A model generated the notes under the pieces. That model had not been told where the DNA came from, ran no database searches, and worked only from the letters and a program-made list of their open reading frames with translations. From Arthrobacter sp. MYb213 (GTDB lineage Bacteria; Actinomycetota; Actinomycetes; Actinomycetales; Micrococcaceae), in contig NZ_PCQA01000005.1 of NCBI RefSeq assembly GCF_002979915.1, positions 1 to 64,000 on the forward strand: a stretch of 64,000 bases of DNA, given 5' to 3'. Shown here piece after piece: positions 5,882-61,675 of the stretch. Position 1 is the stretch's first letter. Every line of letters begins with the position of its first letter. The translations under genes were made by a program, and so were the position numbers.

Positions 5882-5934
5882 ACAGGCGCTCATAGCGGGC
5901 AGCATGTAGCTAATTCGCTAATCGACTTCCTGCG

Positions 5935-5985: not shown

Positions 5986-6042
5986 CGCCTCGGCCGCTCG
6001 ATTCGCAGTAGAGCCTAGTCTTCGGATATTCTTATTTAGTAC

Positions 6043-6116
6043 GCCTCCTTAGCTCAGCTGGCCAGAGCAACGCTCTTGTAAAGCGTAGGTCATCGGTTCG
6101 AATCCGATAGGGGGCT
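6043..6116 (+). tRNA. tRNA-Thr (anticodon TGT)
   Basis: A full cloverleaf is visible. Acceptor GCCTCCT pairs with AGGGGGC. The anticodon stem ACGCT/AGCGT encloses the loop CTTGTAA, giving anticodon TGT, and a GGTTCGAATCC T-arm is present. The 3' CCA is not encoded. A strong terminator follows. Confidence 0.96.
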
Positions 6117-6121
6117 CGAAT

Positions 6122-6167
6122 GACCCTCGTCAACGTTTGAAATGAACGGTGACGAGGGTCTTTTTTT
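6122..6167 (+). terminator. Terminator after tRNA-Thr
   Basis: An 11-bp perfect stem (6122-6132 with 6150-6160) is followed directly by seven T residues. This is a textbook Rho-independent terminator. Confidence 0.9.
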
Positions 6168-6336
6168 CACATTATCCGTGCGACACGTGGCGTCTGTGCG
6201 CTGGGCATTTTGCAAAGGCTTGGTTTATTCAGGTTTTTTGTCGTTCGGGGCGCTAAACTTCAGATGAGTTTTGCTGTTGTTTTCTTAGCGGGAACGTGGC
6301 AGACAAAAGACAACATAACAATTCAAGGAGCCAGAC

Positions 6337-7269
6337 ATGGCCGGTGGACTCGTAGCCCTACTCGATGATGTCGCAGCCCTAGTAAAGGTCACCGCGGCGT
6401 CATTAGATGACATCGCCTTGGGAGCTGCTAAGGCAAGTACTAAGTCCCTCGGTGTGGTCATTGACGACGCTGCAGTCACACCCCAGTATGTGAAGGGCTT
6501 ATCGCCCAAGCGGGAGCTTCCAATTATCTGGAAGATCGCGGTAGGTTCCATTCGGAATAAGCTGCTGATCATCTTGCCGCTCGCCTTGATTCTTTCTCAG
6601 TTTGCGCCGTGGGCGCTGACTCCCATCTTGATGCTCGGCGGAGCGTATCTGGTTTTTGAGGGTGCCGAGAAGCTACTCGAAGCCATGGGAGTGATCAAGC
6701 ATCACAGCCCAGGTGGCAAGGAGGGCGAGCGGGACGAGAAAGCAATTATTGGCTCCGCCGTCCGCACCGATCTAGTGCTCTCTGCGGAGATCATGGTCAT
6801 CTCGCTTAACGAGGTATCTCATGAACCCTTCCTGAATCGTGCATTGATTTTACTTGTCATTGCGGTTCTCATGACGGTGGTCGTCTATGGCGCGGTGGGA
6901 CTGATAGTTAAGATGGACGACATTGGGCTACACATGGCTCAGAAAACATCTACGCTTTCGCAGAAGGTTGGCCGTGGCCTAGTTAAGGCCATGCCGATCG
7001 TGATGTCGATCTTGAGCAAGGTCGGTGTTGTGGCCATGTTGTGGGTCGGTGGACACCTCATCCTTGTGGGCATGGACGAACTTGGGTGGCATGCCCCTTA
7101 TGGTTTTGTGCACCACATGGAACTTTTGGTTCATGACGCGACAGGCTCGGCAGGTGCCGTCTTGGGGTGGCTGACAAATACCGCGTTCTCCTGTGTCGCC
7201 GGATTCTTGATTGGCTGCGTGATCGCCGTGGTGGTTGTGGGCATCAACAAGTTGCGCGCCAAGCACTAA
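6337..7269 (+). CDS. DUF808 family membrane protein
   Basis: 310 aa, matching the YedI/DUF808 family by its opening (MAGGLVALLDDVAALVK), the DDAAVTPQYVKG block and the hydrophobic layout. The protein has a soluble N-terminal 70 residues and then several membrane segments, roughly at 75-110, 165-190, 220-245 and 275-305. The function of the family is not established. AAGGAG lies just before the ATG. It stands alone between tRNA-Thr and the restriction-modification genes. Confidence 0.88.
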   Translation: MAGGLVALLDDVAALVKVTAASLDDIALGAAKASTKSLGVVIDDAAVTPQYVKGLSPKRELPIIWKIAVGSIRNKLLIILPLALILSQFAPWALTPILMLGGAYLVFEGAEKLLEAMGVIKHHSPGGKEGERDEKAIIGSAVRTDLVLSAEIMVISLNEVSHEPFLNRALILLVIAVLMTVVVYGAVGLIVKMDDIGLHMAQKTSTLSQKVGRGLVKAMPIVMSILSKVGVVAMLWVGGHLILVGMDELGWHAPYGFVHHMELLVHDATGSAGAVLGWLTNTAFSCVAGFLIGCVIAVVVVGINKLRAKH

Positions 7270-7423
7270 GCGGTCTTTGTACCCCGGGCCAGTAGAATAG
7301 AAGGTGAGAGAAACCTTCCCGCCGTGAATCTGCGAGCCAGCGAAAACCGTTGGAGCTTAGCCCGGTGGATGACCCCCGTTGCTGTCTGGCTAAAACGTCT
7401 GCCGGCCATGGAAAGATCGATGT

Positions 7424-9076
7424 GTGTTGAAGAGCAAAAATAGTAGCGTGAAAGATACCGCAAGGCATGAGCGTGGCGCGTATTTCACCCCAGAACCTGT
7501 GGCTCGCTTTATGGCCCAGTGGGCGCTCGGTGAGCGCGGTCGCCGTGTGCTTGAACCCTCTTGCGGAGAAGCACAATTTTTAACCACTGCACATCAAGTG
7601 ACCAATGACGGCCGCGGGGACGTAGAGCTCTGCGGAGTGGAACTTCACGAACCTTCCGTACTCGCCGCACGGGCACTGCTGGATGCGCAAGGCGCCCCGG
7701 CTAAGATCCGGCACGCAAACTTTTTTGATGTCCCTGGCACCGCAGATATGGATGCCGTCATTGGTAACCCACCCTACGTGCGTTACCAATTACACCGCGG
7801 GGCCCAGCGAGAGCTTTCGCGTGAAGCCGCCCGACGAAGCGGAGTGGAGCTCAACGAGCTTTCCTCCGTCTGGGCTGCCTTTGTAGTTCATGCTACGAGT
7901 TTTCTGAATACTGGTGGACGTCTGGCCTTAGTTCTTCCGGCTGAACTGATGTTCGTCAACTATGCGGGACCGGTTAGAGCTATGTTGCTCGAACGATTCG
8001 CAAATGTTCACCTGGTCGTCTTTGAACAGCGGCTCTTTGCCGATGCTCAGGAAGAAGTGGTGCTTTTACTGGCCGAGGGATATCGCAGTGACTCTAGCGC
8101 TTCTTTTAGCTTGCACCAATTCCGTAACGCGGATGATCTGACTCAACTGACAGAGGGTAGTAAACACACACCAACAACACCTAGCGACCGGTGGACCGGT
8201 TCACTGGTGACCCTAGAAGCCCAAGGGATCTTGAACCATGCATTGTCCAGTGCAGCGTTTAGCAATCTCCAAGGCTGGGGCGAAACGTCATTGGGTGCCG
8301 TGACCGGCAATAACAAGTGGTTTACGCTCAGCCCCGCACGGGCCGAAGAGCTAGGTCTGACCGAGGCCGAACTAGTGAAGATTTCTCCACCAGGCTCACG
8401 GCACCTTCGTGGTTTGGAGCTGAACACAGACCAATGGCAACGCCTGGGTGAGCACGGCATGTCGACCTTAATGTTCCGTCCCTTGGCCGAGGCCTCCACC
8501 GCCGGGGAAGAACTGATTAACAGTGGCGAACTAGATCTGGTGGATCAAGCCTACAAATGCCGGATGCGCACCCCATGGTGGAGAGTGCCGTTGCTGTCTG
8601 TTCCGGACTTGTTCATGACCTATATGAATGCCGACACTCCACGCCTGACAACTAACCATGCGGGGGTGCACCACATTAACTCAATCCACGGTGTGTACCT
8701 GGGCGCAGAAGTTCGCGAGTTGGGGTGTGACTTACTGCCTTTAGCCTCGCTCAATACCTTAACGATGCTCGGTGCCGAGATGGTGGGACGCTCCTACGGT
8801 GGGGGAATTTTGAAGCTGGAACCGAGCGAAGCCGATAAGCTCCCGGTGCCCGCGGCACATCTTGTGGCCCAATTCGAGCAACAGCTGCTAAATATCAAAG
8901 ACGACGTTCGTGTCTATCTGGAGCACGGTAAAAAACAAGAAGCCACTGCGTTAGTTGACGATATTGTGCTGGGTCAAATGTTGGGCTTAGATGATGCGGC
9001 ACTCAGTGCATTGCACGGAGCCCGCCAAGACATGTTAGAACGACGGAAGTCACGAGCAAAGGCAGTGGAGAACTAA
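7424..9076 (+). CDS. Type II DNA adenine-N6 methyltransferase
   Basis: 550 aa class I methyltransferase. An N-terminal GAYFTP block precedes the SAM-binding motif (VLEPSCGEAQF), and the catalytic N115-P-P-Y118 marks amino-group (N6-adenine) methylation. The order SAM motif, NPPY, then a long C-terminal target-recognition half is that of gamma-class enzymes such as M.TaqI and Eco57I-like proteins. It should protect host DNA from the endonuclease encoded two bases downstream. The chosen GTG start has GGAAAG about eight bases upstream; a GTG at 7448 is possible. Specificity cannot be read from sequence. Confidence 0.88.
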   Translation: MLKSKNSSVKDTARHERGAYFTPEPVARFMAQWALGERGRRVLEPSCGEAQFLTTAHQVTNDGRGDVELCGVELHEPSVLAARALLDAQGAPAKIRHANFFDVPGTADMDAVIGNPPYVRYQLHRGAQRELSREAARRSGVELNELSSVWAAFVVHATSFLNTGGRLALVLPAELMFVNYAGPVRAMLLERFANVHLVVFEQRLFADAQEEVVLLLAEGYRSDSSASFSLHQFRNADDLTQLTEGSKHTPTTPSDRWTGSLVTLEAQGILNHALSSAAFSNLQGWGETSLGAVTGNNKWFTLSPARAEELGLTEAELVKISPPGSRHLRGLELNTDQWQRLGEHGMSTLMFRPLAEASTAGEELINSGELDLVDQAYKCRMRTPWWRVPLLSVPDLFMTYMNADTPRLTTNHAGVHHINSIHGVYLGAEVRELGCDLLPLASLNTLTMLGAEMVGRSYGGGILKLEPSEADKLPVPAAHLVAQFEQQLLNIKDDVRVYLEHGKKQEATALVDDIVLGQMLGLDDAALSALHGARQDMLERRKSRAKAVEN

Positions 9077-45597: not shown

Positions 45598-47218
45598 TGT
45601 TATGTCGCAGGACATCGGTGACAGTTCTGTATCAACACATCGGTGACAGTTCCGGGGTTTTTAGTGGTGACACTTCCACCCATAATTAATAACTTCCAGC
45701 AGTAACTGGCATGAAACCCGCTGCATCCGCTCGACTAGGTCAGTGAAGAGTAACGAACCGGTTGATCCGCGGACCCGTCTAGCAATAGCCCAATGGCCTG
45801 ATGATGCCCCACGTGGTGCCGTGACCACGTTCTGCGACGAGCATCAACTCAGCCGCAAAACCTTCTACAAGCTCCGTGCGATCGCCAAAGCCGATGGGCA
45901 AGACGCCGTCTTGGAGCCGCGTTCACGCCGCCCGAAAACCTCTCCGACCCGAATCACCGAAGACTCCAAAAAGCAGGCGGTAGCAGTACGTGCTGCGTTA
46001 GAAGCCTCCGGTCTGGACCACGGCCCGATCAGTGTGCATGACAAGATGATTTCCTTGGGTTTCCCGGCGCCGTCCATCGCTTCATTAGCGAGAACTTTTC
46101 GTGAAATGAACGTGGCTCGTTCCTCTCCGAATAAGCGGCCACGCGCTGCGTACCGCCGTTTCGTCTATCCGGCACCGAATGCTTGTTGGCAGCTGGATGC
46201 TACGGAGTATGTCCTCACCGGTGGGCGTAAATGCGTGATCTTCCAACTGCAAGACGATCATTCCCGTTTGGCCGTCGCCACGCATGTGGCACGCAGCGAA
46301 AACAGTGAAGACGCCTTGATTGTGATGCGCAAAGGTATCGCAGCACATGGTGTTCCGCAAAGGCTCTTATCAGACAACGGGCTGGCCCTAAATCCATCTC
46401 GCCATGGGTGGGTCGGTCAGCTGGTCGCGTATGTAACTTCCTTGGGCGTCAAGGCCATCACTGGTAAGCCGGGACGGCCTACCACTCAGGGCAAGAACGA
46501 GCGCTTCCATCAGACCCTGTTCAAATGGCTGGACAAGCAGCCAATCGCGCAGAGCCTTGAGCAACTGCAAGAATTCGTGGATCGCTTCGACCTGATCTAC
46601 AACACCCAGCGTCCTCACCAAGGGTTGCCGGGGAGGATTACGCCTCAACAATCGTGGGATGCTACCGAGCTCGCGGCAGAGCCTCGCCCCAGCGATGGGG
46701 GCTCCGGCCTGAAGCTACCTGTGGTTGACCAAGCAATCGAAGCCGATGCCACAGCCCGAATCGTTGCTGTGTATGCCGAGCGGATTGATGATGCGATCAG
46801 CAATACAGAAGCTATTGCACGAGCCGAGACTGCAGCAGTTACCAATCAGGTGGTTGATCCTGGCAAGCTACGCGGCGCAATCAAATCTCTGGGTGAGAAC
46901 GGGCACCGGAAGATGAAGGTCTACACGAACGGAACATTGAGACTGGGTGAAATCACCTTCCACCTGACCTCCCGTATGGGTTCGCGCGTGGTGCTGGTGG
47001 ATTGGGATCCGGAGAATATCCTCGTCTCAACTGAAGACGGTGAGCTGATAGCAGATTTTCCTCGACCTGCTCAAGGAACGAAGTATGTCGGTATCGCTCA
47101 AGCGACTGTCAGCTTTCGAACCAGCTCCGAGAAGGGGTAAGTGTTACCGAAGTCTTGAGACAGCGAGTGTTACCGATGTCCTGATACAGAAGTGTCACCG
47201 CTGTCTTGAGACAAGACA
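45598..47218 (+). mobile_element. IS481-family insertion sequence, intact
   Basis: A 1621-bp element flanked by identical 14-bp direct repeats and bounded by TGT...ACA. The ends are imperfect inverted repeats: left TGTTATGTCGCAGGACATCG, right (reverse strand) TGTCTTGTCTCAAGACAGCG, each continuing into CGGTGACA and TTCTGTATCA. Each end also holds two or three repeated GGTGACA/GGTAACA units about 25 bases apart, likely transposase-binding sites. One transposase gene fills the interior. Confidence 0.92.
45743..47140 (+). CDS. IS481-family DDE transposase
   Basis: 465 aa. An N-terminal HTH region (AVTTFCDEHQLSRKTFYKL) is followed by an rve catalytic core: WQLDATEYV (first Asp), LLSDNGLA (second Asp) and TTQGKNERFHQTLF (Glu). 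It is followed by the WL and QRPHQGL blocks typical of IS481, then a C-terminal extension with a beta-rich domain. All three catalytic acids are present and no frameshift was seen, so it looks functional. The start is a GTG. Confidence 0.93.
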   Translation: MKSNEPVDPRTRLAIAQWPDDAPRGAVTTFCDEHQLSRKTFYKLRAIAKADGQDAVLEPRSRRPKTSPTRITEDSKKQAVAVRAALEASGLDHGPISVHDKMISLGFPAPSIASLARTFREMNVARSSPNKRPRAAYRRFVYPAPNACWQLDATEYVLTGGRKCVIFQLQDDHSRLAVATHVARSENSEDALIVMRKGIAAHGVPQRLLSDNGLALNPSRHGWVGQLVAYVTSLGVKAITGKPGRPTTQGKNERFHQTLFKWLDKQPIAQSLEQLQEFVDRFDLIYNTQRPHQGLPGRITPQQSWDATELAAEPRPSDGGSGLKLPVVDQAIEADATARIVAVYAERIDDAISNTEAIARAETAAVTNQVVDPGKLRGAIKSLGENGHRKMKVYTNGTLRLGEITFHLTSRMGSRVVLVDWDPENILVSTEDGELIADFPRPAQGTKYVGIAQATVSFRTSSEKG

Positions 47219-49687: not shown

Positions 49688-50317
49688 TTGGCCACATCTG
49701 AGACCGAGGGCCACCAATCCGTGGAGTCTTGGCAACAAGAATGGTGGGAGCGCATGAAAACACTGCCCGTAGAACCCACCGGCACAGCGATCAATATTGG
49801 CGCCCGCTTGCGAGGCGTACGACAAACGCGCCGGCTAACAATCGACCAAGTTGCCGAGATGTCGGGGTTGACTAAAGGTTTCTTGTCTCGGGTCGAACGA
49901 GACCTGACAAGCCCATCGGTGTCGACATTGCTCAAGCTCTGCGACGTGTTGGGACTAGAAATTGGCCAACTTTTTTCTGTACCCGAAACAAAACTAGTGA
50001 GGCTTCAAGACGCACCACGCATTGCCCTCGGCGGTGAGGGAATCACCGAACAGCTTGTTACTCCACGCACCGAAACACGTGTGCAAATGATTAGGGCTGA
50101 GGTCGCGCCACAGGGTGCGGGTGAAGCCGAACTATATTCGGTGGACTGCAAAGTGGAAGTGTTGCATGTGATTTCCGGAGGTTTCACCTTGGTGTTGCCC
50201 GAGGATCGTATCGAATTGCAGGCCGGGGACACCGTGACTTTTCCGGGCCGCGAGCCACACAGTTGGGAAAATACAACTGATCAGACGGCCGTAGTCACGT
50301 GGACTCTCTTACTGTGA
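49688..50317 (+). CDS. XRE-cupin transcriptional regulator (PuuR-like layout)
   Basis: 209 aa. An XRE helix-turn-helix (about 37-92: IGARLRGVRQTRRLTIDQVAEM, then SGLTKGFLSRVERDLTSPS) is joined to a C-terminal cupin (about 135-205: VLHVISGGFTLVLPEDRIELQAGDTVTFPG). PuuR and related regulators of polyamine and amino-acid breakdown have this layout. Nearby ureohydrolase and decarboxylase-like genes fit such a role, but control of them is inferred. The start is uncertain: TTG at 49688 or ATG at 49754 with GGGAG. Confidence 0.85.
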   Translation: MATSETEGHQSVESWQQEWWERMKTLPVEPTGTAINIGARLRGVRQTRRLTIDQVAEMSGLTKGFLSRVERDLTSPSVSTLLKLCDVLGLEIGQLFSVPETKLVRLQDAPRIALGGEGITEQLVTPRTETRVQMIRAEVAPQGAGEAELYSVDCKVEVLHVISGGFTLVLPEDRIELQAGDTVTFPGREPHSWENTTDQTAVVTWTLLL

Positions 50318-50453
50318 GCGAGGTTGAACGGTTTGTTGGGGAAAATTTTCACCACGCTCAACTGACCGTTTTAGCTAGATAAATTCCAAAGCGTATCCTT
50401 GAAACACTGTTAACAACTTTAATCGACACCGCTAAATAACCGAAGGGAGCTCC

Positions 50454-50867
50454 GTGACGGAAAGTGAGCCACGGGCTGAACAGTCGGAACTACGCTCTGC
50501 CAATTGGTGGATGTCTGCAATTCTCGGTGTCCTCATTGGCGTAACCATGACGTTGATTCGCACTCAACGTAATTTTTTCATTCTAGGTGCAGGGATTCTT
50601 GCCGGCGTAATTTTAGTGTTGGGGCTTCGCACTATTTACCGGCGCTCACGCTACCCACAGATGGCTCAGGCTAAAACTTCATGGGTATATGGGCTTTGGA
50701 CCGTGTTGCTGCTGGTGCTTGCTGGCCCGGTACAACTCATATATGTGGCAGACGAACTCGACGAGATTGCCATCAAGTCGTTAGTACTCTCGTTAGGTTT
50801 CACCCTCGGGTTCCATGAAGTGGACCGGGCCATAGTTGATAGCAGTAAGAAGTCCTTTAAAGCTTAA
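50454..50867 (+). CDS. Hypothetical membrane protein
   Basis: 137 aa with about four hydrophobic stretches (MSAILGVLIGVTMTLI, FFILGAGILAGVILVLGL, VYGLWTVLLLVLAGPVQLIYV, and a weaker IKSLVLSLGFTLGF). No family recognised. AGGGAG precedes the GTG. The ROK kinase gene follows after 34 bases in the same direction. Confidence 0.7.
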   Translation: MTESEPRAEQSELRSANWWMSAILGVLIGVTMTLIRTQRNFFILGAGILAGVILVLGLRTIYRRSRYPQMAQAKTSWVYGLWTVLLLVLAGPVQLIYVADELDEIAIKSLVLSLGFTLGFHEVDRAIVDSSKKSFKA

Positions 50868-50901
50868 CCACCAGACAGCGCTCACTCAGAGGGAGGAAAC
50901 C

Positions 50902-51858
50902 ATGCCTGCCGAGAACCTCGCGATCGGAATCGACATCGGGGGAACTAAAATTGCCGGGGGCGTTGTAGATGGTAATGGCCAGATCCTACGCCGAAGTTTC
51001 CGTCCCACTCCGGGCCAGAACGCAGCCTTGACTGAAGATGCTATCGCCGCCGTAGTTACTGAGCTGAGCGATGGTAACCAACACCTACCAGTAGGTATCG
51101 GTGCTGCCGGGTGGATTAATCGAAGTGGCTCTCACGTCCTTTTTTCACCTCATCTTGCTTGGCGCGATGAGCCGGTGTTGGAACGTCTCGAAGCTAAAAT
51201 GAACCGCCAGGTCAGCTTGAACAATGATGCGGATGCTGCTGGATGGGCAGAGCATCGTTTTGGTGCCGCACGCGGCGAAAAGCTCAGCGTTTGCCTAACG
51301 CTTGGCACCGGCATTGGCGGCGCAATCATTTTTGATAATCGAATTTTACGGGGCAGCTTTGGCGTTGCCGGCGAGTTCGGCCATCAGACCTTAGTAGTAG
51401 AGGGGCACCGCTGCCCCTGCGGCAACCGCGGGTGTTGGGAGCAATATGCCTCAGGCAACGCGCTGGGACGCGAAGCCGCAGAGCTTGTCCGGCTCAACTC
51501 TCCCCGGGCGCATAATCTTCGTGACGCCTGCTCCTCGGACCCTGCGTTGGTCACCGGCGCGATGGTGACATCTTTGGCAGCCGATGGTGACCTAGCCTGT
51601 ATGGAACTCATTGAAGAGATGGGGCATTGGTTAGGACTGGGGATCTCAAACCTTGCAGCAGTTCTGGATCCTGGTGTCGTGGTGATTGGTGGGGGACTGG
51701 GATCTGCTTCTACTTCCCTGATTGCAACGGCCGAGGCAACGTACCAAAAACTCCTCCCGGGACGTGGATATAGACCCTATGCCCGCATTGTCCGTGCGCA
51801 GCTCGGTGCGGATGCCGGGTTGATCGGTGCCGCGGATTTAGCACGGCATGGCCGCTAA
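50902..51858 (+). CDS. ROK-family sugar kinase
   Basis: 318 aa without a DNA-binding domain. The phosphate-1 loop IGIDIGGTKIAGGVV, the catalytic-region LNNDADAAGWAE, LTLGTGIGGAIIFD, and the zinc loop GHRCPCGNRGCWEQYASG are intact. It probably phosphorylates glucose or an amino sugar such as N-acetylglucosamine or N-acetylmannosamine. GGGAGG six bases before the ATG at 50902 sets the start; the longer frame is rejected. Confidence 0.9.
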   Translation: MPAENLAIGIDIGGTKIAGGVVDGNGQILRRSFRPTPGQNAALTEDAIAAVVTELSDGNQHLPVGIGAAGWINRSGSHVLFSPHLAWRDEPVLERLEAKMNRQVSLNNDADAAGWAEHRFGAARGEKLSVCLTLGTGIGGAIIFDNRILRGSFGVAGEFGHQTLVVEGHRCPCGNRGCWEQYASGNALGREAAELVRLNSPRAHNLRDACSSDPALVTGAMVTSLAADGDLACMELIEEMGHWLGLGISNLAAVLDPGVVVIGGGLGSASTSLIATAEATYQKLLPGRGYRPYARIVRAQLGADAGLIGAADLARHGR

Positions 51859-52166
51859 GCAACCTGAAAGAGGGTAGGGCGGCCTGTAGTCCAGATTTGA
51901 TATTCAAGATAATGTTTCGGTCTGTCTGCAGGGGCCCACGTCATTCTCCTGCAGGGCGAGCCGGGGCATCGACTACGCGACGAGTTGGATGTTCCAAGGC
52001 AGGACCTCATGGACACGACTAAAAATTTGCCTAAGTGACCGTTTGAGAGCCTCACTTTTCCGTTAGCGCGGGAGAGTGGGGCTCTCAATGTTTACAAACT
52101 TGTCCCCATTCTGGACGAATACACCTTGACGGTAGGCGCGCCAATAAATAGCATGGGAGGAAACTC
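51859..52166. other. Intergenic region before ureohydrolase gene
   Basis: About 310 bases with no gene seen. A stem of GAGAGCCTCACT with AGAGTGGGGCTCTC (about 52045-52090) looks like a terminator for the ROK kinase transcript but has only a weak T-tract. The promoter for the ureohydrolase unit should be in the right half and was not resolved. Confidence 0.5.
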
Positions 52167-52220
52167 ATGTTTCATATTAGGCAACTCTTGATTGGGTGTG
52201 CCGGGAGGAATCATTCATGA
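52167..52220 (+). CDS. 17-codon upstream ORF coupled to ureohydrolase
   Basis: ATG at 52167 has GGGAGG six bases upstream and encodes [17 protein letters not shown]. Its TGA overlaps the ureohydrolase ATG as ATGA (52217-52220). A second GGGAGG inside it serves the downstream start. This could be a translated leader that couples or gates ureohydrolase translation. It is too short to judge by codon use, so it remains a candidate. Confidence 0.5.
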
Positions 52221-53203
52221 AAGAAGTACGGATCGAAGAAAATGGGAACATCGGCCCCATCAATGCCGCCGTCATTCCCCGTTACGCAGGCGGTGGAACC
52301 TACGCACGGTTGCCACGCCTAGATCAGGTATCAAAGTCGGATATCAAAATTGTTGGCGTTCCGTTCGATACCGGTGTTTCTTACCGCCCCGGGGCCCGCT
52401 TCGGCGCAAACCACGTGCGTGAATCGTCGCGATTGATCCGTCCTTATAACCCGGCCATCGACGTTTGGCCTTTCGCCTTGAGCCAGGTCTCCGACGCTGG
52501 GGATATGGCAGTCAACCCGTTCAATATCAATGAAGCCATTGAGACCATCGAACACAACGCACTGGAGCTGACCGAGGACGGTGCAACGTTGGTGACTATC
52601 GGTGGTGACCACACCATTGCACTACCTTTACTGCGTGCCGCCTCACAGCGCGCAGGAGCACCGGTAGCTATGTTGCACTTCGATGCGCACTTGGACACTT
52701 GGGATACCTACTTCGGCGCCGAATATACCCACGGCACACCATTCCGTCGTGCTGTTGAAGAAGGCATCCTCGATACTGAAGCGATCTGCCATGTGGGAAC
52801 CCGTGGTCCCCTCTACGGCAAGAAGGACCTCGAAGATGACAAGCGTTTCGGCTTTGGTATCGTTACCAGCTCAGATGTCTACTATCAGGGCGTTAAAGAA
52901 ATTGTTGCCAAACTGCGAGATCGTATCGGCAACCGTCCGCTCTACATCTCGGTAGATATCGACGTTCTTGACCCAGCACATGCCCCTGGCACTGGCACGC
53001 CAGAAGCCGGCGGTATTACTAGCCGCGAACTGTTGGAGATTTTGCGCGGCCTGCGTGGAATGAAAATTGTGGGCGCCGATATCGTTGAGGTGGCACCTGC
53101 CTATGATCATGCAGAGCTCACGGGCGTTGCGGCCTCGCACGTCACCTATGACTTGATCAGCTTGATCAGTGAATACCGTCAGCTGAATGGACAGAACAGC
53201 TAA
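52217..53203 (+). CDS. Agmatinase/guanidinobutyrase-family ureohydrolase
   Basis: 328 aa binuclear-manganese hydrolase. Metal ligands are in GGDHT, FDAHLDT and [16 protein letters not shown]. Family members split agmatine or 4-guanidinobutyrate into urea plus putrescine or GABA. The next gene, overlapping by one base, encodes a ThDP 2-keto acid decarboxylase-like enzyme. That favours guanidinobutyrase in the arginine transaminase route over agmatinase (inference). GGGAGG eight bases before the ATG at 52217 sets the start. Confidence 0.9.
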
Positions 53204-54876
53204 TGAGCAACGAAGTGCAGCGTAACGGTGGTGACCTCGTTGTTGAAACGCTCAGTGCTCTCGGAGCTAAAACAGTCTTCGGGATTCCCGGGCAACATGC
53301 ATTGGGTCTTTTTGACGCATTGTCCCGCTCCAATCTGCAATTCATTTCTTCGCGGGTGGAAAACAACTCGGCATTCGCCGCGGATGGTTATAGTCGCGCC
53401 ACCGGTGAGGTAGGAGTACTTTTCCTTTCCACCGGCCCCGGAGCACTGACGTCGCTGGCCGGATTGCAGGAAGCCTACGCCACCGGTGTACCCATGGTGG
53501 TTATTGCAAGCCAGATCCCGCTGGATGGCTTGGGCGCACGACGTAAAGGCATGTTGCACCAACTTGATGACCAGAAGGCTTCGGCTGCGAACGTCACCAA
53601 GTTCCAGCAAACGGTGCATCACGCCTCCGGTATACCTTCGGCGATCCAAGATGCGTGGGCCCAGGCGGTAACCGTACCGATGGGTCCGGTCTGGGTTGAA
53701 GTGCCGCAGGACGTCCTACTAGCACCGGTCTTTGTTCCACCCGTGCACGATGCTCTGGCCGAGGCTTATGAGCATCCACCCCGGGTAGAGCTGATTGATG
53801 AGGCAGTTCGCTGGCTCTCAGATGCTAAACGACCAGTCATTGTCGCCGGTGGTGGAGTGCGACGGGCCTCAGCAGCAAGTGAACTGTTGCAGGTCGCCGA
53901 GAAGCTTAATGCGCCAGTGCTTTGTACCCCTGGTGGCAATGGTGCATTCCCTTGGGAACACGAGCTTTCTTTGCAGTCTTGGGTGGAGGACCGCTACGTC
54001 ACCGAGGTCTTAGAGGACGCAGACGTCTTGGTCGTTGTGGGCTCGTCGCTAGGCGAAGTGTCCAGTAACTATTTCACCCTGGCTCCTCGAGGACACATGA
54101 TTCAAATCGATGCCGAGCCACGGGTGCTGGAGTCAAACACCCCGGCCCTGGGAATCCGCGCTGATGCCAAGACTGCGTTGGAATTTCTAATCTCGAAACT
54201 CAACGCCACTGAATTGTCTAGTACCCCTGACTGGCACGGACAAAGCCCGGCGCAACTGGTTGCTCAAACCCTAGGCAAGGTGCAGGACCGATTGCGCGGA
54301 CAAGGGCTGGACCTCGAACAGAAGTTCATGGCCGATATCCGTGAAGCGGTGCCAGCGGATATGCAGACCTTCTGGGATATGACGATTGCGGCTTACTGGG
54401 GCTGGAGCTGCTGGGACTCTCGCGATGGTGAATTCCATTCGGCGCAAGGCGCCGGTGGATTAGGCTTTGGATTCCCGTCGGCCATTGGCGGTTCCATTGG
54501 CCTGCAAATCAAGGGTGCCTCGGCCGCACAATCGCGAGTTCTAGCTGTATCGGGCGATGGTTCGTCCATGTATTCAATCGCTGAGCTGGCCACCGCGAAG
54601 CAACACAACGTGCCTGTGACATGGCTAATCGTTGATGATGGCGGGTACGGAATTCTGCGTGAATATATGGAAGGGGCTTTTGGTAAGGCAACAGCTACCG
54701 AGCTAACGCGTCCCGATTTTGTGGCGCTTGCTCAATCGTTCGGGGTTCCAGCGCGGTTGGTGGAAGTAGATCAGATTGGTGAGGCGCTACGTGAATCATT
54801 TGCGGGCGAAGGACCTAATGTGATCGTTGTGCAGACGCTTCTACGCATGTTTGCGCCGACCCACCTAGGGGAATAG
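53203..54876 (+). CDS. ThDP-dependent 2-keto acid decarboxylase-like enzyme (AruI-like candidate)
   Basis: 557 aa with the three-domain acetolactate synthase/decarboxylase fold. The activating Glu is in SSRVENNSAF, and the ThDP motif begins GDGSSMYSIAEL. The second metal-binding position reads VDDGGYG instead of the usual NN-x-x-Y, so one ligand is Asp. Its ATG overlaps the ureohydrolase stop (TAATG). AruI of Pseudomonas, a 2-ketoarginine decarboxylase, is a similar acetolactate-synthase homologue, so 5-guanidino-2-oxopentanoate decarboxylase is a reasonable guess. Benzoylformate decarboxylase-like activity is the alternative. Confidence 0.8.
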   Translation: MSNEVQRNGGDLVVETLSALGAKTVFGIPGQHALGLFDALSRSNLQFISSRVENNSAFAADGYSRATGEVGVLFLSTGPGALTSLAGLQEAYATGVPMVVIASQIPLDGLGARRKGMLHQLDDQKASAANVTKFQQTVHHASGIPSAIQDAWAQAVTVPMGPVWVEVPQDVLLAPVFVPPVHDALAEAYEHPPRVELIDEAVRWLSDAKRPVIVAGGGVRRASAASELLQVAEKLNAPVLCTPGGNGAFPWEHELSLQSWVEDRYVTEVLEDADVLVVVGSSLGEVSSNYFTLAPRGHMIQIDAEPRVLESNTPALGIRADAKTALEFLISKLNATELSSTPDWHGQSPAQLVAQTLGKVQDRLRGQGLDLEQKFMADIREAVPADMQTFWDMTIAAYWGWSCWDSRDGEFHSAQGAGGLGFGFPSAIGGSIGLQIKGASAAQSRVLAVSGDGSSMYSIAELATAKQHNVPVTWLIVDDGGYGILREYMEGAFGKATATELTRPDFVALAQSFGVPARLVEVDQIGEALRESFAGEGPNVIVVQTLLRMFAPTHLGE

Positions 54877-56148: not shown

Positions 56149-56868
56149 ATGAGTAGCATGCAACCGATTTTGCCTAAAGAGTCATTGACGGATCAAGTCA
56201 CCACCAAGATTCGTGCGGCGATTGTTTCCGGTGAAATGACGCCGGGCAATCACTACTCGGCGATTGCTATTTCTGAGAAGCTTGGAGTTTCGCGTACTCC
56301 GGTACGTGAAGCGTTGCAGTTGCTCGAAAAAGAAGGCATTGTGACCGTCGCGAAAAATCGTGGTGTGCGCGTGAATCAGATTTCCTTGGACGATATTGTC
56401 GAGGTATTCCAACTTCGCTTGGTTGTGGAGCCGCCAGCCGCAGCCCGTGCGGTACTTAATGCCAGTGAAGCTGATCTCGAAGTCTTACGCGAACTGCACC
56501 ACGAGATGATCCTGGTGGGGCAAACCGGAGATGGCCGCGCCACCTTAGAGGCGGATAAAAAGTTCCATCTTTACTTACTTGGGCTGGCGCGTAACGCAAA
56601 ACTTGACGGCATTGTCGGAGAGCTGCGCAATTTGGTCTTAGCCCATGGGCAGGTCACGATCCCACAGGCGCGAACTAGCCAAGATCTAGCGGGTGACCGT
56701 GACGAGCTCATGAACGCAATCTTGAATCGTGATTCGTCCGGCGCGCAGATCGCCATGCAGAATCACGTTTTGCGCACTGCACAAATGCTCGTACGAGCCG
56801 TGTGCGCACGCACGCCAGGGCTTGACGATGAGCAGTACTTGTCTCGTTTGGAAGAGCTCATCTTTTAG
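56149..56868 (+). CDS. GntR-family regulator, FCD subgroup
   Basis: 239 aa. An N-terminal winged helix (IAISEKLGVSRTPVREALQLLEKEGIV) is followed by an all-helical FCD ligand domain, with Arg/Asp/His acids (HHEMILVG, HLYLLGLARN, HVLRTAQM) that can bind a metal and carboxylate effector. Its position directly before the catabolic block, with a promoter-overlapping palindrome between them, makes it the likely local regulator. Confidence 0.92.
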   Translation: MSSMQPILPKESLTDQVTTKIRAAIVSGEMTPGNHYSAIAISEKLGVSRTPVREALQLLEKEGIVTVAKNRGVRVNQISLDDIVEVFQLRLVVEPPAAARAVLNASEADLEVLRELHHEMILVGQTGDGRATLEADKKFHLYLLGLARNAKLDGIVGELRNLVLAHGQVTIPQARTSQDLAGDRDELMNAILNRDSSGAQIAMQNHVLRTAQMLVRAVCARTPGLDDEQYLSRLEELIF

Positions 56869-56906
56869 CCCCGATTATTCCCTGTGCTATTGAACACAAG
56901 ATCTAA

Positions 56907-56939
56907 TTGACATACAGTTGCATGCAACATGTAACTGTA
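56907..56939 (+). promoter_or_regulatory. Promoter and operator of the CoA-transferase operon
   Basis: TTGACA (56907-56912) and TGTAAC (56930-56935) are 17 bases apart. A perfect 12-bp palindrome GTTGCATGCAAC (56917-56928) fills the spacer, and a wider TACAGTT/AACTGTA pair (56913-56919, 56933-56939) brackets the -10. A regulator binding here would block the promoter. The GntR protein encoded just upstream is the obvious candidate. Confidence 0.7.
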
Positions 56940-56967
56940 CTTTTTAGGATTAGATCGTAGGTGGCCC

Positions 56968-58113
56968 ATGACTCAACCAATGCAAGGCGTTAAGGTCGTA
57001 GACCTGTCGCGGATTCTTGCCGGTCCGTTATGTACCATGACGCTGGGCGACTTCGGGGCCGAGGTGCTCAAAGTCGAAAGTCGCGCGGGGGACGAAACGC
57101 GAGGGTGGTTGCCACCTGTCACCAGCGATGGTGTGAGCACGTACTACTCGGCAGTGAACCGTAATAAACAGGCAATTGTCGTTGATTTCAAAAACTCCGA
57201 CGAACTGCGCGAATTATGCAAAATTATTGACGATGCAGATGTGCTCGTACAAAACTTTCGTCCCGGTGTGCTCACCCAATTCGGACTCGACTACGAATCT
57301 GTTAAGGAAACGAACCCCGGCCTGGTGTATTGCTCAATATCCGGATTCGGTGACCGGGGTGGTGCCACTCTTCCAGGGTTTGACCTTCTGGTTCAGGCTG
57401 TCGGCGGATTGATGAGTATTACCGGAGAACCAGAGGGGACGCCAAGCAAAGTCGGTGTGGCTTTAGTCGATGTACTTGCGGCCCAGAATGCAACGACCGG
57501 AATCCTGCTTGCCCTGCGCGAACGCGAACAAAGTGGCCTAGGGCAAAAGGTAGATATTTCGCTGATGACATCCATGCTGGCAGGACTCACGAATCAAGCC
57601 AGCAGTACCGTAGCCACTGGTGAATCGCCGCCGCGCTTGGGCAATGCGCATCCGAGTATCGCGCCTTATGAAACCTTCGCAACAGCGGACGGAGTAATGG
57701 TGATCGCTGTCGGAAATAATCGCCAGTTCTCGGCCTTGGTTGCAGAACTAGGGGTGCCTGAGCTCGCCATCGACAAACGTTTTGTTGAAAACCTGGAGCG
57801 CGTAAAACATCGACGCGAGCTCAAGGAGCTCATTGAAGAAATTACCGTTCAGGACAGCGCTAGTCGGTGGACAAATCGCCTAATGCAGGCTGGAGTTCCA
57901 GCAGGCAAAGTCAACTCTGTCGGTGAAGCCTTAGAGCTCGCGGCAACGCTCGGACTGGAACCGCTGGTGAGTATCGAGGACTCAGCTACCGGACGGCATT
58001 CAACACAGGTGGCAAGTCCTATTAACCTCTCGCGAAGTAAAGCAGAATACCGTCTTGTGCCTCCAGACATAGGCGAACACCAGCAGTCTTTTCTCAGCAC
58101 CACCAAACTCTAA
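56968..58113 (+). CDS. CaiB/BaiF-family CoA-transferase
   Basis: 381 aa type III CoA-transferase. VVDLSRILAGPLCTMTLGDFGAEV at the start (the CoA-binding region), YSAVNRNKQAIVVD, and the catalytic Asp in VGVALVDVLAAQN are present. Given the glutaryl-CoA dehydrogenase-like gene next door, transfer of CoA from succinyl-CoA to glutarate (as in SUGCT) is the best guess. It starts an apparent four-gene operon. Confidence 0.88.
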   Translation: MTQPMQGVKVVDLSRILAGPLCTMTLGDFGAEVLKVESRAGDETRGWLPPVTSDGVSTYYSAVNRNKQAIVVDFKNSDELRELCKIIDDADVLVQNFRPGVLTQFGLDYESVKETNPGLVYCSISGFGDRGGATLPGFDLLVQAVGGLMSITGEPEGTPSKVGVALVDVLAAQNATTGILLALREREQSGLGQKVDISLMTSMLAGLTNQASSTVATGESPPRLGNAHPSIAPYETFATADGVMVIAVGNNRQFSALVAELGVPELAIDKRFVENLERVKHRRELKELIEEITVQDSASRWTNRLMQAGVPAGKVNSVGEALELAATLGLEPLVSIEDSATGRHSTQVASPINLSRSKAEYRLVPPDIGEHQQSFLSTTKL

Positions 58114-58126
58114 AGGAGATAATTTC

Positions 58127-59311
58127 ATGAATGATTCACTGTCGACTGCACCTCTAGATCCGGCCGATCTGATCAATTTTGATGCGTTACTCAGCGGCGA
58201 AGAACTCGCCTTACGTAACAACGTGCGCTCATTTGTTAATGAAAACATCAAGCCGAATATTGCGAACTGGTATGAAAAAGCCATTTTCCCCTTGGAAATC
58301 GTACCGGAGATGGCGAAGCTCGGCCTGCTTGGCATGCACCTTGAAGGCTACGGCTGTGCAGGACGTTCAGCAGTTGAATATGGTCTAGCTGGTGCCGAAT
58401 TGGAGGCCGGAGATTCCGGACTACGCACCTTCGTCTCGGTTCAAGGATCATTGGCCATGAGCGCCATTTACAAGCACGGTTCGGAAGAGCAAAAACAAGA
58501 ATGGTTGCCACAGATGGCAGCGGGCCAAGCGATTGGTTGTTTTGGTTTGACTGAGCCGACCGCGGGTTCGGACCCTTCTAGCATGACAACTTTCGCCCGC
58601 CGGGATGGGGATGACTGGGTACTCAACGGACTGAAGCGTTGGATCGGCTTGGCCAACGTTGCTCAGGTAGCGGTAATTTGGGCGCAAACCGACGAAGGTA
58701 TCCGCGGATTTGTGGTTCCCACCAAGACTGCCGGGTTCAAAGCCACACCCATTGAGCCTAAACTCTCAATGCGTGCCTCTATACAATGTGAAATTGAAAT
58801 GACCGAGGTTCGTCTGCCGGCAACCGCAGTGCTTCCCAACGTGGTCGGTCTCAAGGGCCCATTCTCTTGTCTAAATGAAGCTCGCTACGGAATTATCTGG
58901 GGTGCTATGGGCGCTGCACGCGACTCCTTTGAAGTGGCGTTGAAATATTCGCAAGAACGATTGCAGTTTGATAAGCCGCTGGCCGGTTACCAGATGACAC
59001 AGCAGAAACTGGTCGACATGGCCTTGGAGATCAACAAGGGCTTCCTGCTTGCGCTACATATTGGTCGTCAGAAGGACGCCGGATCTCTGGATCTGCACCA
59101 GATTTCAGTGGGCAAACTCAATAACTGCCGTGAGGCCATCGCAATCTGTCGAGAAGCTCGAACCATTTTGGGCGGTAACGGCATTACTCTGGACTACTCG
59201 CCATTGCGTCATGCCAACAACCTAGAGTCCGTGCGTACCTACGAAGGAACCGATGAAGTGCACACGCTGATACTTGGTAATAAGCTCACCGGCATTCCGG
59301 CCTTCCGCTAA
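58127..59311 (+). CDS. Acyl-CoA dehydrogenase, glutaryl-CoA dehydrogenase type
   Basis: 394 aa, the length of glutaryl-CoA dehydrogenase. The FAD-binding CFGLTEPTAGSDP, the WIGLANVA strand, QLFDKPLAGYQMTQQKL-like helix, and the C-terminal VRTYEGTDEVHTL with the catalytic Glu are characteristic of GcdH, which oxidises and decarboxylates glutaryl-CoA to crotonyl-CoA. It follows the CoA-transferase by 13 bases with AAAGGAGA before the ATG. Other acyl-CoA dehydrogenase activities cannot be excluded. Confidence 0.88.
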   Translation: MNDSLSTAPLDPADLINFDALLSGEELALRNNVRSFVNENIKPNIANWYEKAIFPLEIVPEMAKLGLLGMHLEGYGCAGRSAVEYGLAGAELEAGDSGLRTFVSVQGSLAMSAIYKHGSEEQKQEWLPQMAAGQAIGCFGLTEPTAGSDPSSMTTFARRDGDDWVLNGLKRWIGLANVAQVAVIWAQTDEGIRGFVVPTKTAGFKATPIEPKLSMRASIQCEIEMTEVRLPATAVLPNVVGLKGPFSCLNEARYGIIWGAMGAARDSFEVALKYSQERLQFDKPLAGYQMTQQKLVDMALEINKGFLLALHIGRQKDAGSLDLHQISVGKLNNCREAIAICREARTILGGNGITLDYSPLRHANNLESVRTYEGTDEVHTLILGNKLTGIPAFR

Positions 59312-59341
59312 AGATCTTCTGTACAAGAAAAGCCGAAAAAT

Positions 59342-60796
59342 ATGACACAGCAGACCGCAGTAACTCTCCGCCAATATATAAATGGCCAGTGGAACCTCGG
59401 CCAAGCCGACGAGATCGTCTCGACGAGTGCAGCCGACCCAGAGATTCTCGTGGCCACTGGAAAAGCCGCAAATACCGGACAGGTCACCGAGGCTTTCACA
59501 GCAGCTGAGGGTGCCAGGGCTAGCTGGTCCGCCACGCCTATGGCCGAACGCGCAGGGTATCTCCTTAGGGCCTCGGCTTATCTTAACGAGCATGCGCAGC
59601 AGTTTGGAACCGAGCTGGCCACCGAAGAGGGCAAAACTCTCGCCGAAGGAATCGGCGAGGTACGTAGGGCAGGGCAAATACTGTCCTACTACGCAGCGGA
59701 GTCTGAACGAAGCAGCGGAAGTATCTTCCACTCTCCTCGCGCGGGAGAACAGATCCTGGTGTCCCATAAGCCTTTGGGCGTGGTGGGGATCGTAACGCCG
59801 TTCAACTTCCCGATAGCCATCCCCGCATGGAAAATTGCGCCGGCACTGATTTTTGGGAACACCGTGGTGTTCAAACCTGCAAGCCTCGTCCCGTTGTTGG
59901 CGACGCGGTTGGTCCAGGCCTTTGAATATGCGGGCCTGCCGGAGGGAGTGCTTAACCTGATCATCGGTCCTGGCTCGCTGGGGGACTCAATTATGGATCA
60001 GCCACAGCTTTCAGGATTGTCATTCACTGGGTCTACAGGAGTTGGACGTAAACTCTGTGCTCTGGGAGCGGCGCGCGGAATACCGGTGCAAGCTGAAATG
60101 GGCGGTAAGAATGCCTCGGTAGTGCTTGCTGATGCGGATCTGGATCTTGCCAGCGAACAAGTACTGTTCGGCGCTTTTCGGTCTAGCGGACAAAAATGCA
60201 CCGCCACCAGCAGACTCATCCTTGACGAGTCTATTGCCGATGAATTTCTGAAAAAACTCATCCTACGATTGTCCCAATGGGTTACCGGTGATCCGCTGGA
60301 TCCAGCCGTACATATGGGGCCTGTCGTTGATATCAAATCAGCTAACTCCGTCCGGAATGGGATTACCAAGGCGAAGTCCGAGGGCGCCGAGGTCGTCTTT
60401 GAAGGTCTGGCACCTAAGGGCGCAACTTATATCGCGCCCACAATTTTGGGGATCAGCAATGATGCCCGAGGCCGAGCCAATCCGGCTTGGCGCGACGAAT
60501 TTTTCGCGCCGGTACTCACCTTGTTGCGAGTCTCTGGAAATGAAGAGGCTTTTGCCGCTGCTGAGGACTCAGAATTTGGGTTGAGTCTAGCCTTGTTCAC
60601 CCGGGACTTAGCTACGGCTATCGACGCGCAGCAACGCCTAGATGTCGGCATTCTCCATGTGAATTCGGAATCTGCCGGAGCCGATCCGCATGTACCATTT
60701 GGCGGTGCCAAAGCTTCGGCTTATGGTCCGAAAGAGCAAGGAGCAGCGGCGAGAGAGTTCTATACTCACACCACGACAGTTTATTTACGAGGTTAG
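59342..60796 (+). CDS. NAD(P)-dependent aldehyde dehydrogenase
   Basis: 484 aa. The catalytic Cys is in SSGQKCTATSR and the general-base Glu in AEMGGKNASVV; the TPFNFPIAIPAWK and FTGSTGVG blocks bind cofactor. The 'QKCTATSR' form is typical of 2-oxoglutarate semialdehyde dehydrogenase relatives, but the context also allows glutarate or succinate semialdehyde, or 4-guanidinobutyraldehyde. Thirty bases separate it from the dehydrogenase gene upstream, consistent with one transcript. Confidence 0.9.
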   Translation: MTQQTAVTLRQYINGQWNLGQADEIVSTSAADPEILVATGKAANTGQVTEAFTAAEGARASWSATPMAERAGYLLRASAYLNEHAQQFGTELATEEGKTLAEGIGEVRRAGQILSYYAAESERSSGSIFHSPRAGEQILVSHKPLGVVGIVTPFNFPIAIPAWKIAPALIFGNTVVFKPASLVPLLATRLVQAFEYAGLPEGVLNLIIGPGSLGDSIMDQPQLSGLSFTGSTGVGRKLCALGAARGIPVQAEMGGKNASVVLADADLDLASEQVLFGAFRSSGQKCTATSRLILDESIADEFLKKLILRLSQWVTGDPLDPAVHMGPVVDIKSANSVRNGITKAKSEGAEVVFEGLAPKGATYIAPTILGISNDARGRANPAWRDEFFAPVLTLLRVSGNEEAFAAAEDSEFGLSLALFTRDLATAIDAQQRLDVGILHVNSESAGADPHVPFGGAKASAYGPKEQGAAAREFYTHTTTVYLRG

Positions 60797-60808
60797 GAAG
60801 AAGAAAAG

Positions 60809-61675
60809 TTGAGTATCAATAATATTCTCGTCATTGGCGCCGGGACCATGGGGCGTCAGATTGCCATGAGTTGTGCGCTGAGCGGCTTCACGACGGTCCT
60901 GCAAGATATCTCAGACTCGGCCTTGCAAGCAGCTCGCGCGGAATTGGAAAATTGGGCGGCTGGGAGAATATCCAAGGGTAAATTGAGCGCCGAAGACGTT
61001 GAGTTGGCCCTAGCTCGGCTGACTCAATCCACCGAATTAGCTTCCAGTGCTGCGCAGTCGGATCTTGTGATCGAGGCTGCCACCGAACGCCTGGATATCA
61101 AGCGAGCCATCTTCGCCGAGTTGGGCCAGCACGCGCCAGCCCACGCGATTCTTGCAACAAACTCGTCGACCTTGGCATCATCCCACGTAGCTGAAGCGAG
61201 TGGGCGGGCCTCCCAAGTTTGCAACATGCATTTCTTCAACCCGGCCTTGGTGATGAAATGTGTGGAGATTGTGCGAAATGCGCAGACTAGCGATGCGACG
61301 ATTACTGCGGTCACTGAGGTGGCCCGAGCATTGGGCAAGGAGCCAGTGCTGGTGAATAAGGAGATTCCAGGGTTCATCGCTAACCGTATGATGGGCGCTA
61401 TTCAGCAAGAAGCCCTGAATTTGGCTTCGACAGGGGTAGCGAGTATCGAGGATATCGATACCACCGCACGCACGGCACTAGGCCACCCTATGGGTCCCTT
61501 TGAATTGATGGACCTGGTGGGATTGGACGTAATTGATTTCATCGCGCAGGCGACCTACGCGGAAACTGGTGAGCCGAGCGATCAGCCGCACCCGATGATC
61601 ACCGAGAAAGTCGGTGCGGGAAAGATCGGACGTAAGAGCGGTCAGGGATTTTACCGCTACGACCAAGAAAAATAG
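60809..61675 (+). CDS. 3-hydroxyacyl-CoA dehydrogenase (3-hydroxybutyryl-CoA type)
   Basis: 288 aa. A Rossmann NAD site (VIGAGTMGRQIAMSC) at the N-terminus is followed by ATNSSTLASSHVA and HFFNPALVMKCVEIV, and the C-terminal helical domain contains GFIANRMM and HPMGPFELMDLVG. This is the short, single-function form. It would oxidise 3-hydroxybutyryl-CoA to acetoacetyl-CoA. A TTG start with GGAAGAAG is used, 12 bases after the aldehyde dehydrogenase stop. Confidence 0.92.
   Translation: MSINNILVIGAGTMGRQIAMSCALSGFTTVLQDISDSALQAARAELENWAAGRISKGKLSAEDVELALARLTQSTELASSAAQSDLVIEAATERLDIKRAIFAELGQHAPAHAILATNSSTLASSHVAEASGRASQVCNMHFFNPALVMKCVEIVRNAQTSDATITAVTEVARALGKEPVLVNKEIPGFIANRMMGAIQQEALNLASTGVASIEDIDTTARTALGHPMGPFELMDLVGLDVIDFIAQATYAETGEPSDQPHPMITEKVGAGKIGRKSGQGFYRYDQEK

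Follow-up and report, generated by a model that had tools for sequence, protein, structure and literature searches.

A ureohydrolase–thiamine diphosphate enzyme gene pair in Arthrobacter sp. MYb213 and its probable place in 4-guanidinobutyrate metabolism

Gene order at the locus and its conservation

A 64,000-nucleotide stretch of the 3.79-Mb genome of Arthrobacter sp. MYb213 (14 contigs), hereafter the window, carries on its forward strand two overlapping genes for a ureohydrolase and a thiamine diphosphate (ThDP)-dependent enzyme, upstream of which lies a gene for an XRE-cupin regulator. The features under discussion, with the pair first, are as follows:

52217–53203, + strand: ureohydrolase, best read as a putative 4-guanidinobutyrase (PF00491, Arginase, 310 bits; top match in the PDB the guanidinobutyrase 3NIO)
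53203–54876, + strand: ThDP-dependent enzyme, best read as a putative 2-ketoarginine decarboxylase (PF02776/PF00205/PF02775, TPP_enzyme_N/M/C, above cut-off)
49688–50317, + strand: transcriptional regulator with XRE-family helix-turn-helix (HTH) and cupin domains, TTG start (Pfam HTH_3/HTH_31 and Cupin_2)
52160–52173, no strand: palindrome GAAAC-N4-GTTTC, candidate operator, ending 43 bases 5′ of the ureohydrolase ATG
50454–50867, + strand: small membrane protein, a non-core neighbour (homologue in 15 of 80 related loci)
50836–51858, + strand: ROK-family sugar kinase, between the regulator and the pair (TIGR00744, 248.8 bits against a cut-off of 260.35; homologue in only 2 of the 80 loci)
56149–61675: run of genes for a GntR regulator, a CaiB-type coenzyme A (CoA)-transferase, an acyl-CoA dehydrogenase, an aldehyde dehydrogenase (ALDH, at 59342) and a 3-hydroxyacyl-CoA dehydrogenase

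The ureohydrolase open reading frame (ORF; 52196–53203) opens at a GTG at 52196, the likely start being the ATG at 52217, which is preceded by GGGAGGA, and it ends with a TAA at 53201–53203. The ATG of the ThDP gene occupies 53203–53205, one base being common to the stop of the former and the start of the latter, just as the first-pass annotation had noted in describing a one-base overlap between the ureohydrolase and an acetolactate-synthase-like ORF.

How general is this arrangement? Among the related loci, taken as the best 80 of the 208 found with the ThDP protein and scored for neighbours by tblastn matches covering at least 50% of the query, all 80 have a ureohydrolase gene directly 5′ of the ThDP gene and in the same orientation (79 when a length filter is applied); the distance between the ureohydrolase stop and the first aligned ThDP residue ranges from −3 to 141 bases, the median being 45. 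The pairing is therefore beyond chance. A homologue of the XRE-cupin regulator falls inside the fetched stretch in 73 of these loci and a sodium:solute symporter in 58, and wherever both were scored (57 of 57 loci) the two genes are divergent neighbours. The module symporter has no match in the window; the host genome encodes an 87% identical symporter at C9:136804–138303, beside a different ThDP gene. This C9 symporter is the genome's sole match to the module symporter at E 1e-20; its gene and a divergent ThDP gene, 418 bases apart, lie at 8787–12378 of L283, and the product of the latter scores 573.9 bits on the model of an unnamed subfamily (cut-off 539).

The closest named relative is Glutamicibacter ardleyensis, whose ThDP protein is 98% identical. 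At E 1e-60 the ThDP protein matches 162 of the 197 sampled genomes of the window's family; 12 of these matches are weaker than 1e-100 and may represent other ThDP enzymes, which would leave the gene in about 150 of the 197. A phylum-wide sample of 296 genomes yielded ten matches at E 1e-90, namely two in the window's family, seven in one further genus (f5 g38), which we take to be Streptomyces, and one in genome G413. In all seven genomes of this second genus, scored like the exceptions at a query cover of at least 40%, a ureohydrolase gene (70–71% identical) lies directly upstream of the ThDP gene. The ThDP gene thus stands beside a ureohydrolase gene in the examined loci of both groups, with two exceptions: in G413 the homologue is 40% identical and has an ALDH gene beside it instead of a ureohydrolase, and the homologue on an Embleya plasmid has a ureohydrolase gene about 480 kb away but none within 8 kb. 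An Arthrobacter plasmid carries the symporter, regulator, speB and ThDP genes together, and the annotation seen for such a pair there is agmatinase plus thiamine pyrophosphate-binding protein. Among the literature matches listed, the window's ThDP lineage is assigned nowhere and the pair is undescribed for Arthrobacter and Streptomyces.

Some individual records deserve mention in their own right. The Arthrobacter plasmid NZ_AP024658 (L136) has two ThDP gene copies under one protein accession, the second in the inverted order ThDP–ureohydrolase–regulator and with a ureohydrolase match of only 52%. In a record titled Sporosarcina beigongshangi (L024), a name from the Bacillota, the encoded ThDP protein and that of the window are 79% identical, which points to transfer or else to an assembly that is mislabelled or mixed. 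Three viral contigs matched the search pattern, and none of the three encodes a relative of the ureohydrolase.

The regulator had been described at first pass as having a PuuR layout. The HTH plus cupin architecture stands; the likeness goes no further than that layout, the score on the PuuR equivalog being 71.6 bits, below the cut-off of 211. The palindrome GAAACTCATGTTTC (52160–52173) occurs once in the window, and the pattern GAAAC-N4-GTTTC is found 5′ of the ureohydrolase gene in 6 of 79 loci, against 0.1 expected (four of these records are named Glutamicibacter and two Arthrobacter). In the operator search no exact palindrome recurred 5′ of both the regulator and the ureohydrolase, the three that are common to the two sides being present in one or two loci per side; TTGCCT-N3 recurs 5′ of the regulator in 12 loci.

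The ureohydrolase and its exchangeable partners

The ureohydrolase passes the agmatinase equivalog model TIGR01230 with 214.3 bits against a cut-off of 174.3. What does this label tell about activity? A Pseudomonas aeruginosa protein (NZ_CP131792) whose sequence includes, without a single difference, the segment of the guanidinobutyrase 3NIO is itself annotated as an agmatinase, and this GbuA protein scores 212.1 bits on the same model, also over the cut-off. Because GbuA passes too, the label cannot discriminate between the activities, and the earlier suspicion that it may be wrong for the window protein is justified inasmuch as the label is unreliable. If the reading developed below holds, the label is likewise unfit for inferring polyamine synthesis, as was found for the human enzyme annotated as agmatinase (PMC9772407, in excerpt).

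All five metal ligands (H129, D152, H154, D156 and D243 in GbuA numbering) are kept in the window protein. In a tree of 75 ureohydrolases, 68 rows including the window's form one clade (support 99/98), outside which GbuA, GpuA, PAH1 and SpeB fall. The window protein has an arginine equivalent to R72 of GbuA, as do 65 of these 68 rows (the others having Gln, Lys or His); at this position Escherichia coli SpeB has Ala (the alignment is uncertain there, with an insertion adjoining) and PAH1 has His. In GbuA, R72 is described as capping the active site of the neighbouring subunit, where it can reach the substrate carboxylate (PMC9772407, in excerpt). The ureohydrolase assignment is the firmer half of the reading developed below. 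The clade member with Gln at this position (L206) has a class III aminotransferase gene directly beside it and may act on another substrate.

Two other ureohydrolases encoded in the genome were considered as rivals for the role and set aside: one is HutG (310.9 bits against 229), and the other matches none of the NCBIfam models at E 1e-40; the latter, an arginase-family protein of 388 amino acids (aa), is encoded on contig C11 (L265, 6082–7248).

A class search, in which 59 of 97 ureohydrolase matches were fetched as loci and partners were scored at a query cover of at least 45% (the ThDP types within 5 kb and at no less than 45% identity), shows that the partner of the ureohydrolase varies. 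A window-type ThDP gene lies within 5 kb in 10 of the 59 loci. Four others (L186, L187, L192, L204) have a ThDP gene of the AruI clade (type B) beside the ureohydrolase; on the AruI model the one such neighbour that was scanned reaches 475.6 bits, slightly short of the cut-off of 500. Two loci (L172, L188) carry an L-amino-acid monooxygenase gene, L172 having a window-type ThDP gene as well. To these may be added a Tsukamurella plasmid (L230) with genes for an XRE regulator, SpeB (61%), a permease, a C-N hydrolase and a flavin oxidoreductase; among solved structures this oxidoreductase matches an L-amino acid oxidase/monooxygenase best (677 bits). The monooxygenase neighbours of clade ureohydrolases (L172, L188, L230) occur with or without a C-N hydrolase. 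The routes of these alternative partners, i.e. the window-type ThDP enzyme, the AruI-clade ThDP enzyme and the flavin monooxygenase, would all converge on 4-guanidinobutyrate. Two genomes of one family (L213, L214) have tandem ureohydrolase genes, whose products are 37% and 53–54% identical to the window protein.

A proposed route from 2-ketoarginine to GABA

We consider it reasonably probable that the pair encodes a 2-ketoarginine decarboxylase and a guanidinobutyrase operating in a 4-guanidinobutyrate module. In such a module, the ThDP enzyme would convert 5-guanidino-2-oxopentanoate (2-ketoarginine) into 4-guanidinobutyraldehyde, an unlinked ALDH of the aminobutyraldehyde type (here probably that at C7:562532–563905) would convert the aldehyde into 4-guanidinobutyrate, and the ureohydrolase would release 4-aminobutyrate (GABA) and urea from it. 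The sodium:solute symporter that is linked to the pair in most relatives may serve for substrate uptake and the XRE-cupin protein for regulation, whereas 2-ketoarginine could be supplied by a transaminase, by a D-amino-acid dehydrogenase, or by the oxidase activity of an L-amino-acid oxidase/monooxygenase encoded on contig C4. Gene order, conservation, family membership, active-site residues, the exchange of partners inside one ureohydrolase clade and the GABA-transaminase-like gene that precedes the pair in some relatives are direct observations; what either enzyme acts on, which way the flux runs, what symporter and regulator do and where 2-ketoarginine comes from are inferred. The type of pathway is already known, the ThDP lineage and the regulator being its variant features.

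The first-pass annotation had matched the pair to AruI and guanidinobutyrase, as the last two distinctive steps of 2-ketoarginine breakdown. In favour of this match are the guanidino-acid features of the ureohydrolase with its R72-type arginine, the likeness to the gbuA locus of P. aeruginosa, the AruI-clade ThDP enzymes that fill the same slot beside orthologous ureohydrolases, and a GABA-transaminase-like gene in a few relatives; it fails for AruI in the strict sense, the ThDP enzyme falling outside the AruI clade.

The gbuA locus resembles the present one in combining an R72-bearing ureohydrolase with a ThDP gene (of the AruI family there), and it has a symporter, which here is a feature of most relatives' loci. 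By contrast, its regulator is of the LysR type and not an XRE-cupin protein, the two ureohydrolases are 39% identical, and its ThDP enzyme scores 883 bits, over the AruI cut-off that the window enzyme does not reach; a linked cytosine permease and a linked oxidoreductase binding flavin adenine dinucleotide are features of that locus. AruI and the window enzyme both depend on ThDP and occupy the same slot beside orthologous ureohydrolases, yet they belong to separate clades and differ at position 479 (window numbering), which is Asn in AruI and Asp in the window type. In Shinella, genes for a permease, SpeB, AruI and an ALDH are followed, after two other genes, by those for a D-amino-acid dehydrogenase and an alanine racemase, an order that suggests the dehydrogenase as one source of 2-ketoarginine. 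The AspC/IlvB1/SpeB2 network of Sinorhizobium meliloti, as excerpted from PMC7268258, likewise places a 2-oxo-acid decarboxylase and a ureohydrolase around 4-guanidinobutanoate; unlike the window, it includes a transaminase, and it is redundant. A further possible likeness is to the Zn-guanidinobutyrase/D-arginase of Arthrobacter sp. KUJ 8602, a member of the ureohydrolase superfamily from the same bacterial family (Arakawa 2003, as quoted in the excerpt of PMC11271267).

Which ALDH might serve the intermediate step? The enzyme at 59342 had been put forward for it. The gene is real, but it belongs to a separate gene run and has homologues in 8 of the 80 loci (7 to 10 for the genes of the run), and its product is the last of the genome's 14 matches to the relatives' module-linked ALDH (30% identical); it was therefore rejected as the linked missing step. 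First among the 14 (45% identical) is the ALDH at C7:562532–563905, which is unlinked to the pair and passes the aminobutyraldehyde model with 699.8 bits against a cut-off of 615. Of the 59 class loci, 5 encode an ALDH of this subfamily close to the ureohydrolase (the L181 copy scores 637.6 bits, cut-off 615), and four of the five have a window-type ThDP gene; in these, which make up 4 of the 10 window-type loci, the ALDH gene is downstream of the pair.

As for transaminases, all loci were searched with five aminotransferase queries taken from the fetched records, and matches covering at least 40% of the query were listed. A class III aminotransferase gene lies directly 5′ of the ureohydrolase gene in 4 of the 80 related loci (L006, L011, L013, L015), and for all four the best models are those of 4-aminobutyrate–2-oxoglutarate transaminase (601–611 bits against a cut-off of 639, and 488–493 against 506.65). 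A GABA-transaminase-like gene would fit a guanidinobutyrase, because GABA is its expected product. In the same four loci the stretch from regulator to ureohydrolase (about 4190–8820) was seen by eye to hold, besides this gene, a membrane-transport-like ORF of 516–525 aa and an opposite-strand ORF resembling a PucR regulator. An aminotransferase match was obtained in 11 of 60 other loci. Four class loci of one family (L175, L178, L181, L183; 4 of 59) have a pyridoxal phosphate-dependent aminotransferase gene 4–5 kb from the ureohydrolase; the L181 copy, the only one scanned, scores best on a PdxR-like model (247.7 bits against 320) and second on MppQ (233.1 against 540), which is an enzyme of enduracididine synthesis. 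A transaminase of the L181 type, though below both cut-offs, could be a guanidino-acid transaminase.

What would follow if the proposed route operates? A widespread family of soil and cheese-surface bacteria would possess an arginine-to-GABA route that one genome paper (PMC2991359, in excerpt) records as absent or incomplete, and a function would be found for a ThDP lineage that has no name in the NCBIfam models.

Evidence against the assignment, and alternative readings

Several observations weigh against the pairing of 2-ketoarginine decarboxylase with guanidinobutyrase. On the AruI model NF005712 the ThDP enzyme reaches 333.1 bits, below the cut-off of 500 (it reaches 340 bits, cut-off 571, on the model of an unnamed subfamily). 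In a tree of 44 rows the window type is a clade of its own (100/100), grouped with rows of unknown function (100/98) and apart from the AruI clade (99/99); when it is constrained to group with the AruI rows, the log-likelihood drops by 70 units (p 1.8e-5 in the approximately unbiased test, for a group chosen after inspection of the tree). AruI and window types have His32, His119, Asp392 and Tyr398 in common, but these are mostly also found in the rows of unknown function, and hence do not mark AruI activity. Since the ThDP enzyme lies outside the AruI clade, its decarboxylase role would have to be deduced from the slot that it occupies, not from orthology. Among the nearest ThDP rows other than the window type, an ALDH gene was seen by eye to adjoin only that of X_L121. 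Nothing was drawn from the AlphaFold model of the ThDP enzyme, the predicted local distance difference test score of which averages 68 and falls below 50 at 400–422.

The same holds for gene content. No aminotransferase matched in the window at E 1e-8 with the five queries, contrary to the transaminase module of the first-pass annotation, the nearest thing to a candidate being the gene 4–5 kb away in 4 of the 59 class loci; and the GABA-transaminase-like gene occurs in only 4 of the 80 loci, below the cut-offs and none of them the window. Of the 59 ureohydrolase loci, 45 are without these ThDP types within 5 kb, one of them (L193) having a weak ThDP match. The ureohydrolase is about equidistant from its characterized relatives (39% identical to GbuA, 41% to GpuA, 37% to SpeB and 39% to PAH1), and the position of GbuA M161, which is said, after work by Lee in 2011, to affect specificity, is Tyr in the window protein, as it is in GpuA and in 65 of the 68 clade rows. 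On account of this Tyr and of the equidistant identities, activity on 3-guanidinopropionate or a wider substrate range is possible. In S. meliloti the AruI homologue IlvB1 was sevenfold more active on 5-amino-oxopentanoate, and SpeB2 accepts 2-ketoarginine (PMC7268258, in excerpt), so that the order of the steps could be reversed. Finally, the genome paper on A. arilaitensis Re117 gives arginine degradation as absent or incomplete (PMC2991359, in excerpt).

Could the ureohydrolase be a guanidinobutyrase that receives most of its substrate from an arginine monooxygenase route, by which arginine becomes 4-guanidinobutyramide and then 4-guanidinobutyrate, the ThDP enzyme acting on another or a broader range of 2-oxo acids? 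Such a route, via a 4-guanidinobutyramide hydrolase, has been proposed for Streptomyces (PMC10322714, in excerpt); like the present module it ends in 4-guanidinobutyrate, and homologues of its genes lie beside ureohydrolases of the same clade, whereas it employs a flavin monooxygenase and an amidase and no ThDP enzyme. Contig C4 of the host genome (7.7 kb; L268, 321–7595) encodes a C-N hydrolase, a 483-aa ORF product, a PucR-like regulator, an amino acid permease and an L-amino-acid oxidase/monooxygenase that scores 753.7 bits to 3WE0. It is possibly an arginine or lysine monooxygenase locus and a possible second source of 4-guanidinobutyrate in this genome. Homologues of the C4 hydrolase and monooxygenase genes lie in L172 beside those for an XRE-cupin protein, the ureohydrolase and a window-type ThDP enzyme; the Tsukamurella plasmid and the 45 loci without these ThDP types nearby point in the same direction. 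On the other hand, the C4 enzyme may be a lysine enzyme here, and the presence of a monooxygenase does not track that of the ThDP gene, a strong ThDP match being found in 49 of 61 genomes with and in 101 of 136 without it (no association). Moreover, neither a monooxygenase nor a C-N hydrolase is encoded in any of the 80 related loci within the fetched stretch, although the ThDP and ureohydrolase genes remain adjacent there. On balance we regard this alternative as rather unlikely.

Perhaps the two routes need not exclude one another. A monooxygenase product would proceed via the amide and an oxidase product, 2-ketoarginine, via the ThDP enzyme, both arms reaching the shared ureohydrolase at 4-guanidinobutyrate. 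The thought that the ThDP lineage took up 2-ketoarginine decarboxylation independently of AruI, and that in genomes like this one it forms one of two arms fed by an L-amino-acid oxidase/monooxygenase, is offered as a speculation with perhaps one chance in several of being right.

A true agmatinase, converting agmatine into putrescine under PuuR-like regulation and with a ThDP partner unrelated to it, could be imagined from the TIGR01230 score, from the PuuR-type domain layout of the regulator and from a single protein of the Orn/Lys/Arg decarboxylase family in the genome. We hold this to be improbable: GbuA passes the same model, the R72-type arginine is present where SpeB has Ala, no SpeA over cut-off was found in the host genome and the decarboxylase-family protein meets no model cut-off, and the agmatinase reaction has no role for the ThDP enzyme.

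Slightly less probable still is a guanidinopropionase-like system, in which the ureohydrolase would hydrolyse 3-guanidinopropionate and the substrate of the ThDP enzyme would be a guanidino 2-oxo acid of shorter chain. The GpuA-like Tyr and the marginally higher identity to GpuA would suit it, but two speB loci that we read as guanidinopropionase contexts (one of the proteins is 86% identical to GpuA) carry genes for an aminotransferase and a methylmalonate-semialdehyde dehydrogenase, which fits beta-alanine, whereas the linked transaminase of four relatives is GABA-type and the other partners point to a C4 chain.

A clavam-type biosynthetic pair, resembling carboxyethylarginine synthase and proclavaminate amidinohydrolase, was suggested by a Streptomyces clavuligerus plasmid on which ureohydrolase and ThDP genes are likewise linked (presumably in a clavam paralogue cluster) and can be set aside as very improbable, given that PAH1 lies outside the clade with His at the R72 position, that CEAS1 is a separate long branch, and that an asparagine-synthase-like gene separates the S. 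clavuligerus genes, whereas nothing separates the overlapping genes of the window.

Turning to the neighbouring genes, the small membrane protein and ROK kinase genes stand between the regulator gene (49688–50317) and the pair, and the kinase (50836–51858) is probably outside the module. In the run at 56149–61675, the best model for the CaiB-type protein is succinate-glutarate CoA-transferase, below cut-off, and the run is perhaps a dicarboxylate (glutarate) catabolic cluster. A few kilobases upstream of the regulator, at 45743–47140, lies a transposase-like gene with an integrase core (rve).

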